From the NCBI GenBank assembly GCA_030144725.1, contig JASKMD010000016.1, forward strand, positions 1,477,753 through 1,541,752: DNA of 64,000 bases. The letters run 5' to 3'. The notes beneath the pieces are model-generated. The model had not been told where the DNA came from. It searched no databases and was given only the letters and a program-made list of their open reading frames with translations. A program made the position numbers and the translations under genes. This document shows positions 45,554 through 63,096 of this stretch, piece by piece. This DNA comes from Haematococcus lacustris. Taxonomy: Eukaryota > Chlorophyta > Chlorophyceae > Chlamydomonadales > Haematococcaceae. Position 1 is the first letter of the stretch. Every line of letters starts with the position of its first letter.

Positions 45554-46027
45554 GGGCCATAGCTCATCACTGGCTTGGACTTTTTGCATGCTACCTACTA
45601 GGTTGGGCAGCTGTAACCACCCTCTACAACCTCTCATACTCACATTTCATGAAAAGACACTTTGATCACTCGGTGCCAACTCCCTTAGCCAAAATCAGGG
45701 TCACAGCCCCACACCTGGTCCAACAACTCGACACCGAGTGAGAATTACACTTTGGCCCAAGAGAGTCTTGACCTCCCCTAGGTCTCAACAACCTACATGC
45801 CAAGTTTCAGACCTGAACTCTCAAGTTTTTCAAGCCAGCCAGCCCTTAATTTGCACGAGTGGCGTGCCCTTAATACCCTCCCACCAGTCCACAAGGAAGT
45901 CGTAACAGGGAGGGCAGGACCCATGAGAAAGGCACTGAACTAACCAGCTCCCTCGTCCCTCACTAGGGCCTCCAAATGAGCCGGACCACTGTGGAGCACT
46001 AGGGACTACTAGCGGGACTACTCAAAT
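45554..46027. other. Left flank of the recombinase transposon; no gene seen
   Basis: Single-copy-looking sequence with moderate GC and no coding frame. Ends in the AAAT target duplication (46024-46027). Confidence 0.5.
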
Positions 46028-46583
46028 GGTCACCCCCGCCATTGGCTGCACCCCCGTGGCTCAAGAGATAAAAACTTTCTCATTTCTGCACGGATGAGGC
46101 CGCTGATTCGTGCGATGAGCAGCTTATGGCCTGACTAGAGTGCGGCCAGCCCCAGCGGTTTGCCGGGTGGCTGGTCCCCAACACGCGACGTGTTCTGGAG
46201 CTTCGCAGACACTCTTAGCAACCGCTGTAGGCAGCTTGGACCCAGCGCGGCGTGAACGGCGCATCCAAACTATTTTTTAAACCAGCATGCAACAGCGCTT
46301 TAAATCGCATTCTTCAACACGGGTTCAGTCCACATGTGACAGCAATGTCAAGGTGGTTTCCACATCGGTGTTTGTGGTTCTTTTGCAGCCAAACGCAGCT
46401 AGAATCACTCAAAAAGATGCAGAAACTGAGCTGATAACTATGTTTTCCGCTTACACCGAAACGGCTTGAAACGGCCCACATTTGAAGGCAACGCGTATCT
46501 GTCTTCCGGAACTTATAATGTACCACACAAGGAGCCGCACAGAACTTGCAGTCCATCATTCGACGTCCTGGTTGGATAGATAA

Positions 46584-46769
46584 CCGGCCGAGAAAAATGC
46601 CCACATCGAGGATATTTGACATGGGGTGACGTGACACGAGTTGCACGCTGTTCGGGTGCAGGGACTGGCACAAGCCATACCACCACTCTTAAACACGTCA
46701 TCAGCACTAGCACTAGCACTAGAACACATGTCAAGGAGGGTACTGCGCCCGACGAAAATTCAAACATTT
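46584..46769 (+). repeat. 186-bp direct repeat, left copy
   Basis: Runs from CCGGCCGAGAAAAATGCCC to CAAACATTT. No difference from 51533-51718 is seen by eye. It contains GCACTAGCACTAGCACTAG and ends about 60 bases before the putative recombinase start. Confidence 0.9.
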
Positions 46770-46827
46770 TTGCCGCCGCGGCGCTGGCGGGCAGGCGGGC
46801 CGGCGTACGGGCTTGCATTGACCTGCT

Positions 46828-49800
46828 TTGTACCGCTGCGGCCTGCAGGCATGGTGCCTTCTAGAGGAGCGCAACCCGAAAGACGTTGTCAACAGCGGCA
46901 CGATGTACCTCGTCCACGTCTTGACGATCTACGGAAAGATTAAAGACTTGAGAAGCCAACCAACCCGCACACCGGCACAACAACAAGAGCTGCAGGAGCT
47001 GGAAGAGGGGCCAGGATCACCCCACCTTGTGGGTGCATGTAACCTTGTGCGTGATGTGTGTGCAGATGCCTCCTACCGATGCTCACTGATTGGTGTCATG
47101 GCGTGCTTGCAGAGGATTTCAGCCCTGAAGCAGCTCCATGCTGGCTTGCAGAAAGCCTACCGAAAAGCTTGCCAAGAGGCGCTCGTCCCACAGGCTGTGG
47201 ACCTTCTGGGTGTTGCTGTGTACAAGAAGACGTACCATGAGCTAGTGCGGCGCGTCATGGGAGGTGACAAGATCTGGTGGGTGGGTGCACAGGGTGGCTC
47301 CCACCTCTTCCCCCCCCCTTGGCAGCAGCTGGCTGAATGACATAGGCATGGCCCAGCTGCCTCATGTGGTGATGTAGCAAGACTTATGTGACTCATCCTG
47401 ATTGCAGTGACCCAAGCCTCTTGGACATATGCGAGGCAGGCACCCTCCTCAGCAGAGAAGACATGGATGGCATGATGAGCACAACCCTGGCAGTCAAGAC
47501 AAACGAAGCTGCCACGCGCAGGTGGGTCATGCATGGCATTGAGCACATTAAGCATGTGCATGAACTTATCAATGCTAATCTGCAGGTGTCTGGCGCTCCT
47601 GCTGTGGACTGGCGTGGCAAGGGGTGACAGTATCAGACAGTGCAAGGTGCATGGCATCTCAGCAAAGCCAGTCAAGTCGATTGGTCCCTCAGCCTGTGTA
47701 AAGTTCACCATCAACTACAGATCTGGCAAAACCACAGTGGTGAGTTCTGCATTCTGCATCAGCATACCAAGTGAAGTCATGCATCATGCACTCAGCACAG
47801 GTGCCTGCGTGTGAATGCAGGCGGGCAGTATGGACCACATCAGCTTTGTGCGCAGCCATGACATCCACATGTGCCCGGTGCATGCGCTGGGGGTATACTA
47901 CCACCACAGGTTCACAATGCGCCATGCGCCACTGTACCTCGATACCCCCCTCCTATTTACCCAGGTTCCACTGATTGCTGGCCACAAATCACTGCAGTCC
48001 ATGCAGTACGACGGCATGAGAGACATGGTGAAGCAGCTATTTGTCGAGTTTGGCCTGGAGCCAGCTGCCATTACTCACGCCTTCCGCAAGGGTGGAGCCA
48101 TGGATCTGGCATTGTCTGGGTGGGTGTGATCCTTTTATCTATGACAACATGTCCTCCATTGTCATTCTATTTAAGACAACATGTCCTGTGGCATGTGATG
48201 CAGTGTGGATGCCGGGCAGATCAAGAGCCATTGCCACTGGGGAAGAAGGGATGTGTCAGAGGCGCACTACCTCAATGCAGAGTCGCGCTTGGAACCTCTG
48301 CTGGCCGTGGGTGGCTGGGATTTCAGCATCCAGAACCGGAAGGCAGCATTCTGGCATCCCAGGTGGCACCCCACTCTGCCCCACCCCACCCCACCCCACC
48401 CCACCCCACCCCACCCCACCCCACACTGCCCCACCCCACCCCACCCCACCCCACCCCACCCCACCCCACCCCACCCCACCCCACCCCACCCCACCCCACC
48501 CCACCCCACCCCACCCCACCCCACCCCACCCCACCCCACCCCACCCCACCCCACCCCACCCCACCCCACCCCACCCCACCCCACCCCACCCCACCCCACC
48601 CCACCCCACCCCACCCCACCCCACCCCACACCACACTGCCCCACACTGCCCCACACTGCCCCACACTGCCCCACACTGCCCCACACTGCCCCTCCCTGCC
48701 CCAGATATGAGGTCATCCTGCTTGGGCCATTCCTGGACGAGGCAGCTGTGCACATCTTCAGCTTCCTGCCTGCCCTGAAAGAGGCCAATGACAGCGCTAC
48801 CATCACCAAGAAGATCAAAGCATGCTTTGCAGCACTGTTGGCGGCTCTCCTTGAGCTCACAGTCGTGCTCTGCCAAGACTGCATCTGGCTCCAGCTGACA
48901 GCTCCGGATGTAAGCTCCCAGGATCATCTGTGCCAGCACATCCAGCGCTGCCATGGCTACCAGGAGGTGGCGGAGAAGGCAGCACAGCAGCTGGCCAATG
49001 GAGAGCTTCTTCGTCGCAGACCTCGAGGGACGATGGAGGTCTTGAACGACATGTACAACCTGCAGCTGGCTGGTCCTGCCATGACAGCTGCCTTGACAGC
49101 ATCAGCAGCAAGAGCAGCAGTTGTGCAACACAACACAGCAGCAGGAGGAGGAGCAGCAGCTGGGCAGCACAGCCCTGCCCCCGGCCTGCTGGGCCCCTGG
49201 CCTGCAGCAGCAGCAGCAGGAGGAGGAGCAGCAGCTGGGCAGCACAGCCCTGCCCCCGGCCTGCTGGGCCCCTGGCCTGCAGCAGCAGCAGCAGGAGGAG
49301 GAGCAGCAGCTGGGCAGCACAGCCCTGCCCCCGGCCTACTGGGCCCCTGGCCTGCAGCAGCAGCAGCAGGAGGAGGAGCAGCAGCTGGGCAGCACAGCCC
49401 TGCCCCTGGCCTGCTGGGCCCCTGGCCTGCAGCAGCAGCAGCAGCAGCAGCAGGAGCAGCAGCTGGGCAGCACAGCCCTGCCCCTGGCCTGTGGGGCCCC
49501 CGGCCTGCATCAGCAGGAGGAGCAGCAGCTGGGCCGCACAGCCCTGCCCCTGGCCTGTGGGGCCCCCGGCCTGCATCAGCAGCAGGAGCAGCAGCTGGGC
49601 AGCATAGCCCTGCCCCTGGCCTGTGGGGCCCCTGGCCTGCAGCAGCAGCAGCAGCAGGAGGAGCAGCTCCTGGGCAGCACAGCCCTGCCCCTGGCCTGTT
49701 AGGCCCCGGGTCTGCAGCTGCAGCAGGGGCCGAGCTTCCATACACAGCAGAACAGTTACAACAGCAAGCACCAGTGACAGAGGCCATGAAGCTGTATCGG

Positions 49801-51045
49801 GAAGGAAGGTACGGTAAGCCTCCATTGTGCCAGTTGGAGAAAGACCCCAGCTGGAGGAAGGGCCGCAAAGATTTGGCTAGAAGGGTTTGTGAGATTAAGA
49901 AGCTGATCAGGCTCAGTGATTGGTATCTAGAGTCTCAGTGCTCTGTGGCCAAGAGCAAGCAGGAAGCTTTGGACCAACTGTGCCATGCGACCAAGGGCAT
50001 AGGAGCATGGAGTAGCCAGTTGAAGTGGCTAGAAGCACTCCAGGGGCAGCTGCAGCCCCCCACCTACCCCACATCCCTGGCAGCAGCTGCCAGGCTGACA
50101 GGGCTGATGCAGCCTCCCACCTCCCCCACACCCCTGGCAGCAGCTGGCAGTGGGGCAGGGCAGCTGCAGCCTCCTACCTCCCCCACACCCCTGGCAGCAG
50201 CTGGCAGGCTGACAGGGCTGCAGCAGCCTCCCACCTCCCCCACACCCCTGGCAGCAGCTGGCAGGCTGACAGGGCAGCTGCAGGCTCCCACCTCCCCCAC
50301 ACCCCTGGCAGCAGCTGGCAGTGGGGCAGGGCAGCTGCAGCCTCCCTACTCACCCACACCCCTGGCAGCAGCTGGCAGTGGGGCAGGGCAGCTGCAGCCT
50401 CCTACCTCCCCCACACCCCTGGCAGCAGCTGGCAGGCTGACAGGGCTGCTGCAGCCTCCCACCTCCCCCACACCCCTGGCAGCAGCTGGCAGGCTGACAG
50501 GGCTGCTGCAGCCTCCCACCTCCCCCACACCCCTGGCAGCAGCTGGCAGGCTGACAGGGCAGCTGCAGCCTCCCACCTCCCCCACACCCCTGGCAGCAGC
50601 TGGCAGGCTGACAGGGCAGCTGCAGGCTCCCACCTCCCTACTCCCCCACACCCAGCAGCCTCCCTACTCCCCCACACCCCTGGCAGCAGCTGGCAGTGGG
50701 GCAGGGCTGCTGCAGCCTCCCACCTCCCCCACACCCCTGGCAGCAGCTGGCAATGGGGCAGGGCTGCAGCTAGGGCTTGGTTGCCCTATGCCATGCACAG
50801 TGGAGCATGCAGTGTCAGCCTTTTTGTCCCACAGTGCCAAGAACCTCAAGAAGACCACGGGCTTAATGACTGGCTGCAATGGGTTTGTCTGCTTGGCTGG
50901 AGCTGTTGGTGAAAAGCAGCCAATGGCGCTATGGCCTCCTTCTGCAGAGGCCACCAAAGATGTCTACAAGAAGGCAGCTGCCAAAATCAATCAGCTGCAA
51001 GGGAGAGAGCGCAAGGCTACTCGTGTTGCTACTAAGAAGCACTAG
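46828..51045 (+). CDS. Crypton-type tyrosine recombinase with GCR1_C-like segment (about 1171 aa)
   Basis: Six exons join in frame: 46828-47276, 47408-47521, 47586-47739, 47821-48119, 48204-48362 and 48705-51045. Catalytic tyrosine-recombinase positions can be read: first Arg in CLALLLWTGVARGDSIR (about R200), Lys in NYRSGKTT, HxxR in THAFRKGGAMDLALS (about H325/R328) and Tyr in QIKSHCHWGRRDVSEAHYL (about Y361). The following FWHPRYEVILLGPFLDEAAV resembles the stretch after the catalytic Tyr in Crypton proteins. LYREGRYGKPPLCQLEKD...WRKGRKD near 49790 resembles the GCR1_C DNA-binding domain. The last exon also encodes two tandem-repeat blocks: about 8 x 72 bases (Ala/Gly/Pro-rich) and about 12 x 60 bases (PPTSPTPLAAAG). 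The start Met is a guess; an earlier exon may exist. No inactivating stop is seen. Confidence 0.75.
48363..48704. repeat. (CCCCA)n intron of the recombinase gene
   Basis: About 50 CCCCA pentamers followed by CCCCACACTG units lead straight into the acceptor at 48704. The surrounding frame happens to stay open, which makes a false 946-codon single-exon ORF. Confidence 0.85.
49138..49700 (+). repeat. 72-bp coding tandem repeats, about 8 copies
   Basis: Units such as GQHSPAPGLLGPWPAAAAAG, in frame with the recombinase ORF. Unit length varies in multiples of three (CAG/GAG runs), so the frame is preserved. Confidence 0.9.
50038..50760 (+). repeat. 60-bp coding tandem repeats, about 12 copies
   Basis: Each unit encodes a variant of LQPPTSPTPLAAAGRLTG (or AAGSGAGQ). 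All length differences preserve the frame up to the C-terminal domain that ends at the stop 51043-51045. Confidence 0.9.
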
Positions 51046-51532
51046 ACTTAAACCAAGCATACTAAGCACTTGGATACTCTGGCGCTTTGCGTCATGCTTG
51101 TTTCTCGCGTGTTTCTTGTGTGTTTCGCGTCCTGCTTGCGTTTGCATGTGACCTGACTGGGTTCAACACATGTCCAACACATGTCCACATGTCAACAACA
51201 TCTCCTTGAATCGATCGTTCCGCTGCAATTGCAATATTCACTGCAACCCGCTTATCGAAGTCGAGGCTACGTAACGTCGAAGTCGAAGTCACCTAACGTC
51301 GAAGTCAGAGACACGAGACAAGCAGACAGGCAAACAAACGTCCGCAGACATTAGTGCGAGCATGTATGCGAAACAGCGAAACAGCAAGTCCGTCTCCAGA
51401 CCTGTCTCCAGCCCTGTCAAAAATATCGGGCTGACCCCAGCAGTGGCTGGGCTCCTGCTCAGACCTGGGTCCGGCCCAGACCACCTCACTTTTCCTCACT
51501 CCGCCCGAGCCTGGTCCGAGCGCCCGTTCTAC

Positions 51533-51718
51533 CCGGCCGAGAAAAATGCCCACATCGAGGATATTTGACATGGGGTGACGTGACACGAGTTGCACGCTGT
51601 TCGGGTGCAGGGACTGGCACAAGCCATACCACCACTCTTAAACACGTCATCAGCACTAGCACTAGCACTAGAACACATGTCAAGGAGGGTACTGCGCCCG
51701 ACGAAAATTCAAACATTT
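51533..51718 (+). repeat. 186-bp direct repeat, right copy
   Basis: Same orientation and length as the left copy, 490 bases after the recombinase stop and 243 bases before the right terminus of the transposon. Confidence 0.9.
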
Positions 51719-51997
51719 GAAAAGCTGGGCCGCTGAGCGCGATAGCTGTTCTCTGATCACAGCCCCACTAAGTAGGCTATTCCTAACAAAACGCGACCTA
51801 ATCTCTCAGCACCCCCGCCCGCCCCGGCACAGGTGCACATCAGCCCGAGCAGCCCGCTAGCTTCGCTTTGATGAGCTGCACCGCCCTGTGCAAGAATCGC
51901 TGTAAAACTCTCAAAGACCGGTCGGAGTTTATCAGGGGTGCGGCCAATGGCGGGGGTGACCAAATGGTGTCAAGGAGCTGTGTAGAGTATACGCAAT

Positions 51998-61255: not shown

Positions 61256-63096
61256 GGTCACCCCCGCCATTGGCCCCGCAATTCACTTTTTGGCACCGTC
61301 TTTGATCCGCTGCATGTAATTCTTCTACCATTGGGCTCTACATCTCACAACGGTGTCGCTAGCAGGTTAGGCCCTCTTTTGTCGATTGTACTGCACTGTC
61401 TCGACGACATGATTAGCTTCGCAATGCCATTCTCTATCTGTTTATATGCGTGTCGCAACAGGAGAGATGAATTGGTGGCCGGAGGCATTTCCGCGCCGAG
61501 CAGCCTTTGCTGCCATCGGACTGGCAAGTCGCGATTACTTCCCAGGCAAGCACGGGGTGCTGTTTCTTAGTGCGTTTTGCATACAATGTCAACACATGCA
61601 ACCAAATCTGCTGACCTCCACAGGTGCTTGGCAGTTGTGAGGATCAGCATCAAACCCACAGCAGCCCAAGGGTCTTCCAAGCAGGAGTGCAGCAAGGGGA
61701 TCAGCTCTTGAAAACAGTGAGCAAGAGGTGAGTAAGGTTGTAATTTACCTCACCTTGTCTAGGTCAGTTTGATGTTCACGCGCACACTTGCGCAACGCAT
61801 GACAGGCATGAACAGCTGAGGGTAACACACAACTGTCATGAGCCTTAGTTTCGAACTATTTCTACTTTTTTCCAACCATGTTTTGTGGTGTGTGCCCCAA
61901 GACCTTGTCTTTGTGATTGTGTGTGCAGGATGCCAATAAATCACCCCCATCTCCATCACCGAGCAAGGCAGCAGCGGCGTAGAGCAGCAGCCAACAAGGA
62001 GGTAGCAAGGAGTCAGCAAGGCATGACATGGAGCTGGACGTTGTTGTTGTTTGTGTTGTGTTGTGTGTTGTTGTGTTGTGTCACCTTGTTGTTAGGGTAC
62101 CCCCCCCCCTCCCCCCTAAAATCTAGCCCACCCCAGCCCACCCCAGCCCAGCCCAGCCTAGCCTAGCCTAGCCCAGCCCACCCCAGCCCAGCCCACCCCA
62201 GCCCAGCCTAGCCTAGCCCAGCCCACCCCAGCCCAGCCTAGCTTAGCCCGCCCAGCCCAGCCCAGCCCAGCCCGCCCAGCCTAGCCTGGTACCATGGGGC
62301 ATAGGCAGCAAGGCAAAGTGCTTAGCAGTCCCGTGGTGAGTGTTAGCTATAGCAAGGAGGTGCGACCAGTCCTTGCTTGTTGTGCACATAGCATAGGTGG
62401 TGTGTGAGGCATGAGTCATTGTGTTGTGGTGTGTTGTTGAGGTGGTGGTGTTGATGTGTACGAGTGGAGGTGTTGTGGTGTGGTGTTGCCACCTTTTTAC
62501 ATCAATGCATGTGCTTGGCATCAGCGATACATGTCTTTTGTAGTGGTGTTGCAAGGCGTTTGAGCATCGATACATGTATTTCTGTAATGATTTTGCGTGA
62601 CATGTGCCTGCTGAAGTTGAGGAAGAGGGTTGAGGCACCACGGCACATGTAACACTGAAAGCCAGAGCCATCCCGAGCCATCCCGACAACATATCGCCAA
62701 GTGATGATGTGGCGCTGTCATAAGGCAGCTTACATTTGCATAGAGTCATGCCGCAACGTCAGTGAGGTAAGGGGTGCCAGCTGGCTGACTTGTGCGCATA
62801 TTCACCAATTATATGCTCCATGCACTGACATGCAAGCAGGCGTACTGCACTTGTGCCGTTGGCTTACGGCGTGCGTAGAAGGATTGGCAGCCTCGCCTTA
62901 TGATGTGCGTGAGTCTTTTAGAGGCGGAAAGCACAGGTCAGGTTTGGGCGGGCGCCGATCTGAGCTAGTGTTTTGCGGACTGCTGGGTGCCGCATACACC
63001 TGTTACACCCGTCTGCGTCAAAACTTTGTCGCGAGCTTCACTGAGATTCGCGCCCCAGACCGTCTCACATTTGCGGGGCCAATGGCGGGGGAGACC
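61256..63096. mobile_element. 1841-bp TIR element related by termini to 46028-51961
   Basis: Left end GGTCACCCCCGCCATTGGCC, and right end reverse-complemented GGTCTCCCCCGCCATTGGCC; both continue CCGCAA. AGCT stands on both sides (61252-61255, 63097-63100), a 4-bp duplication. No recombinase or other transposase frame was found. A dispersed repeat (62120-62600) is nested inside. It looks like a non-autonomous relative of the recombinase-bearing element. Confidence 0.75.
62120..62600 (-). repeat. Dispersed repeat with AGCCC/AGCCT tail, copy 2
   Basis: Reverse complement of 43503-43830 at about 75-80% by eye. Begins with a long array of CAGCC/TAGCC pentamers on the plus strand. Nested in the TIR element 61256-63096. 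Confidence 0.75.

Follow-up and report, generated by a model that had tools for sequence, protein, structure and literature searches.

A left-truncated Crypton lies within a short terminal-inverted-repeat transposon of Haematococcus lacustris, likely through insertion at TAACC

Within the window, the 64,000-nucleotide stretch of Haematococcus lacustris DNA analyzed here, a tyrosine recombinase gene lies between inverted ends and a 4-bp target duplication. This arrangement is very probably a composite of two elements: a left-truncated Crypton inside a 985-bp terminal-inverted-repeat (TIR) transposon, which it likely entered by recombinase insertion at TAACC. On this reading the short transposon accounts for the inverted ends and the duplication and the Crypton for the recombinase, which makes the arrangement one of ordinary nesting. 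This removes an apparent exception to the rule that tyrosine-recombinase elements lack inverted ends combined with target duplications. The analysis also delimits an algal Crypton family of many copies at both its ends, and the likely target motif YTAHCC should help in annotating other algal genomes.

Structure of the composite and of a second element with the same ends

The sequence-only reading had described exact 19-bp inverted ends with AAAT on both sides, and we recovered both features at the positions below. Absent from it was a 189-bp direct repeat inside the inverted ends (46581-46769 and 51530-51718, one mismatch), which contains the TIR-element segment found twice in the window.

46024..46027, no strand: left target duplication AAAT, 4 bp, belonging to the TIR element
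46028..46046, + strand: left terminal inverted repeat, GGTCACCCCCGCCATTGGC
46028..46585, + strand: left arm of the TIR element (nt 1-558), with the putative TAACC target of the Crypton at its end
46586..46769, + strand: extra copy of TIR-element nt 559-742, identical to 51535-51718
46770..46774, + strand: TTGCC, 5 nt of putative filler, delimited against Crypton locus L033 and the right-hand repeat
46775..51534, + strand: Crypton, its left end and first exon gone, with right end TTCTACCC
51530..51534, + strand: TACCC, right terminal direct repeat of the Crypton, pairing with the target TAACC at 46581-46585
51535..51961, + strand: right part of the TIR element (nt 559-985), beginning GGCCGAG
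51943..51961, - strand: right terminal inverted repeat, the exact reverse complement of GGTCACCCCCGCCATTGGC
51962..51965, no strand: right target duplication AAAT, 4 bp, belonging to the TIR element

The arms of this TIR element hold five further open frames (102-124 aa), none of which matches a Pfam family. The window also contains a second element, likewise missing from the earlier reading, whose longest stop-to-stop frame is 171 codons.

61256..63096, no strand: further element sharing the 19-bp ends (its right end with one mismatch), AGCT on both sides

When the first 100 and last 100 bases of the two window elements were compared, alignment was limited to the 19-20 bp ends. Since these ends are all that aligns in the stretches compared, and the second element has AGCT on both sides, it is a fair inference that a transposase would work in trans on the 19-bp ends. 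When viral contigs were searched for the initial 18 bases of the end, a single match appeared, in AT-rich, unrelated-looking DNA, which we judged to be due to chance.

The inverted ends belong to a short, multi-copy transposon

Genome searches were run against the 307.9-Mb Haematococcus lacustris assembly. Using the left 553 bases of the TIR element as query, we obtained 40 matches (40 of 1704 candidates scored) and fetched 30 loci, the window being one of them. Both ends were present in 23 loci (≤3 mismatches), and the span between them was 972-993 bp in 21 of these 23, the typical element being about 985 bp long. In copies of this size the left and right parts adjoin directly, and the 189-base repeat is single. 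A perfect 4-bp duplication flanks 19 of the 23 two-ended loci, or 18 of 22 when L003 and L004, which are one sequence with identical flanks, are counted once, and the duplications comprise 13 different sequences; those without a perfect duplication are L005, L010, L012 and L017, with L010 and L017 having longer spans and other material within. The right end was out of reach in seven loci, including the window, and several of these are truncated or rearranged. Inverted ends with a variable target duplication, the marks of a TIR transposon, are present in many copies.

None of the 29 other fetched loci carries a Crypton recombinase inside the TIR element. The only match to the Crypton block among them is to its tandem repeats, and it lies in L009 beyond the limits of the TIR element there.

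We also found that the left and right arms of 985-bp copies such as L005, L006, L007 and L020, among others, are close to different subfamilies, so that these copies are mosaics. The window element shows the same behavior, with a left arm nearest to L003/L004 (99.5%) and a right arm nearest to L016 and L022 (98.8-99.2%). Because mosaic arms are common among TIR copies, such similarities single out no donor, and the differing arm affinities of the window element may leave other routes to its present form open.

The Crypton family has ends of its own

For the Crypton, a recombinase query (window 47408-48362) gave 38 matches, several of which are fragments of one copy, and 30 loci were cut so as to reach 1500 bases on either side. 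The 19-bp inverted end (≤4 mismatches) occurs in only two of these 30 loci, the window and L033. In L033 a 103-bp stretch (128-230) lies between the same inverted ends, wholly upstream of the Crypton and without a matching 4-bp duplication; the match of its Crypton to the window stops after about 1.5 kb.

With the right end as query, 44 matches were obtained (40 of 54 candidates scored), and 25 of them extend to the end of the query: the window, L068, L069 and 22 short stretches. Every one of these 25 closes with TTCTACCC, and the sequence beyond it differs from GGCCGAG in all 24 outside the window, L089 and L090 among them having a common flank. One further locus, L070, stops about 17 nt short of the right end.

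At the other side, the left end reads YTAHCC|(T/A)GGTGTTATCATG in 9 of the 11 places that have the left-end motif (a table of 12 rows, in which L051 is the same place as L042); the misfits are L047 and L056. Upstream of the motif, L033 and L034 are alike over a further 57 bases (91%), which may reflect a shared target repeat. Given the two misfits and this upstream likeness, the left boundary is placed with less confidence than the right one. Three loci stand outside the left-end count: L037, in which both the first exon and the left part are missing, and the pair L035 and L043, where the exon is present without the left-end motif. The first exon is joined to the Crypton at element nt 748 in 13 places other than the window, and in L033 it reads MAPARSRKLCIADDD..., as translated by eye.

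Short terminal direct repeats, TACCC and YTAHCC, are the anatomy of a Crypton; these were found here, and the search for inverted ends covered GGTCACCCCCGCCATTGGC only.

These counts bear directly on the two explanations offered by the sequence-only reading, namely an undescribed class that uses inverted ends, or the capture or invasion of a TIR transposon by a recombinase element. The first is contradicted on both sides, by TIR elements without the recombinase at 29 of 29 other loci and by Crypton copies without these ends at the 24 right ends outside the window. The co-occurrence of ends, duplication and gene, which had been proposed as its support, is seen in the window copy and nowhere else among the 30 TIR loci (40 of 1704 candidates scored) and the 25 Crypton right ends. 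As signs of simple nesting, TIR elements without the recombinase or recombinase copies without the ends had been named beforehand, and in these loci we observed both.

The same counts weigh on the idea that the nested composite later transposed as one TIR unit with the Crypton as its passenger, in the manner of MarCry-1_FO. The intact outer AAAT duplication is compatible with this, and the part of the Crypton survey available to us describes a TIR transposon with a Crypton as passenger (PMC3212892). Yet the window is the single composite among the 30 TIR loci and 25 Crypton right ends, and, with no Pfam match in the five arm frames, the transposase would be needed from elsewhere, leaving this route quite improbable.

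The recombinase gene and its product

46849..51045, + strand: tyrosine recombinase gene (Crypton type), without exon 1, in six predicted exons
46849-47276, 47408-47521 and 47586-47739, + strand: three predicted exons of the window gene
47821-48119, 48204-48362 and 48705-51045, + strand: three further predicted exons of the window gene
49780..49925, limits approximate, + strand: GCR1_C-like segment, under the Pfam cut-off

The spliced frame is open over the six predicted exons (46822-51045, 1173 aa); the initial prediction began at 46822, and the start at 46849 was set by eye from P0001. This Haematococcus lacustris record is 99% identical over 83% of the window-protein query and is probably the annotation of the window gene itself. 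The window protein matches Pfam NDC10_II at 30.7 bits (E 2.2e-7; cut-off 26.3), bearing out the earlier claim of a Crypton-type tyrosine recombinase gene within the ends. NDC10_II also exceeds the cut-off in P0001 and in the paralogues P0002 and P0003, with none in P0004, which lacks that part of the protein. A GCR1_C-like segment had been claimed as well: the match is present, but at 15.5 bits it falls under the 23-bit cut-off, and the corresponding score in P0004 is 13.4 bits. DUF3435, which we take to be the domain of Starship captains, appears weakly and under the cut-off, only in P0002 and P0003. The R, K, HxxR and Y positions in the window protein were assigned by eye from the motifs of such enzymes and are putative. 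Searches of PDB sequences gave no relevant match (one irrelevant weak match only), and a predicted structure of P0002 had a mean pLDDT of 33.4 and was left unused.

The predicted intron at 48363-48704 consists mostly of a CCCAC pentamer array and is open in frame. The C-terminal half of the protein is encoded in part by two in-frame tandem arrays with units of about 75 bp (49136-49720) and about 57 bp (50044-50768), which match other Crypton copies too and apparently vary in copy number.

The junctions and a proposed history

At the right junction in the window, TACCC directly abuts GGCCGAG, and at the corresponding place all 30 fetched TIR loci, with the left copy in the window included, read GATAACC|GG. 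Because TACCC|GGCCGAG sits exactly at this conserved site, the Crypton likely inserted at TAACC, and since TAACC fits the left-junction motif of the Crypton family, insertion by the recombinase is the simplest reading; the TAACC|GGCC junction in this way favors the earlier suggestion of invasion. The arrangement in the window recurs at none of the 24 other right ends. With 40 of 1704 TIR candidates scored and Crypton flanks of 1500 bases, further composites could exist.

The two elements also meet elsewhere. In L099, reversed TIR-element sequence (nt 239-158) lies about 22 nt past the Crypton right end, and since both position and orientation differ from those in the window, Crypton-TIR contacts have happened more than once. 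At about 12.75 Mb on C175 (L061 and L009), a divergent Crypton match is followed some 1.5 kb further on by a 977-bp TIR element with the duplication ATGT, in the orientation opposite to that of the Crypton match.

The left junction is less simple. TIR-element sequence overruns the target by 184 bases and is followed by TTGCC and then by the Crypton from its first intron onward (46775), the deficit amounting to 368 bp relative to L038, exon 1 included. As this is not a clean Crypton end, the argument for insertion comes from the right junction and the target match. Among the other fetched Crypton loci (L033-L099), nothing matched the 184-base repeat.

From these junctions, the following three-step history is likely. 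A TIR element would first have inserted, duplicating AAAT, with its transposase presumably supplied in trans. A circular Crypton, which if closed at TACCC would carry a TACCC|TGGTGTTATC junction, would then have used its TACCC repeat to recombine with the TAACC at nt 554-558; the right-hand product of this step, TACCC|GGCCGAG, is itself directly seen. Later, a break at the left junction would have been mended with an empty TIR element as template, from which nt 559-742 were copied, and the repair would have ended in joining to the first intron of the Crypton, with TTGCC as filler. This last step would account for the 184-bp stretch being present twice and for the missing exon 1.

Two alternatives were weighed. 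The circle could already have borne TIR-element sequence when it arrived, making later repair unnecessary, and the identity of the two 184-bp copies agrees with this; we nonetheless consider it very unlikely, as the repeat is unmatched in the other fetched Crypton loci, and a left side with filler in place of the Crypton left end points to end joining. Alternatively, the window could hold one autonomous element whose recombinase moves the inverted-end unit, the 985-bp copies being deletions between the internal direct repeats. Deletion between the 189-bp repeats would indeed yield the 985-bp form exactly, and recombinase and inverted ends do occur together in the window. Against this, each of the other recombinase copies examined ends in boundaries of the Crypton family, with none seen enclosed by these inverted repeats, the 184-base repeat has no counterpart in L033-L099, and the window recombinase lacks its first exon, so that we give this explanation next to no credence.

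Returning to insertion followed by repair, the break itself might have been made by the recombinase at the Crypton TAACC junction and mended by copying another TIR element. This proposal is unlikely, if conceivable; were it true, failed Crypton excision would swap sequence among dispersed TIR copies and help to build their mosaic arms.

Comparison with known systems

A literature search joining Haematococcus, Crypton and transposable elements turned up no paper, and no description of a Haematococcus lacustris Crypton family was found in the literature searched. The Crypton survey that serves for comparison here is presumably the work of Kojima and Jurka. In the parts of this survey available to us, Cryptons are described as having no inverted ends and terminal direct repeats of 4 or 6 bp, and the species abbreviations include Chlamydomonas reinhardtii (PMC3212892). 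As far as those parts describe CryptonF (YR plus GCR1_C; PMC3212892), the Haematococcus family resembles it in its NDC10_II-type recombinase, putative GCR1_C-like tail and TA(A/C)CC terminal direct repeats, and in having no inverted ends of its own (searched for GGTCACCCCCGCCATTGGC ends). It differs in its green-algal host, in a window copy without left end and first exon, and in a GCR1_C match under the cut-off; the likeness is one of domains and end anatomy, and the assignment to CryptonF is tentative.

MarCry-1_FO is described in the same parts as a Crypton fused with a Mariner transposon, of which four copies were analyzed (PMC3212892). The window is similar in having a Crypton within inverted ends and a target duplication; unlike MarCry-1_FO, with its Mariner-type DDE transposase and four copies, it is one composite in which no transposase was recognized. 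The TIR element itself, with its many short copies and variable duplications, is like non-autonomous TIR transposons with 4-bp duplications, a match made by ends and duplications and not at the level of a superfamily. As a eukaryotic tyrosine-recombinase element, the Crypton also invites comparison with Starship captains, from which it differs in that DUF3435 is weak, under the cut-off and confined to P0002 and P0003. Both elements in the window are thus of known kinds, and the algal Crypton family is an addition to them rather than a new class.
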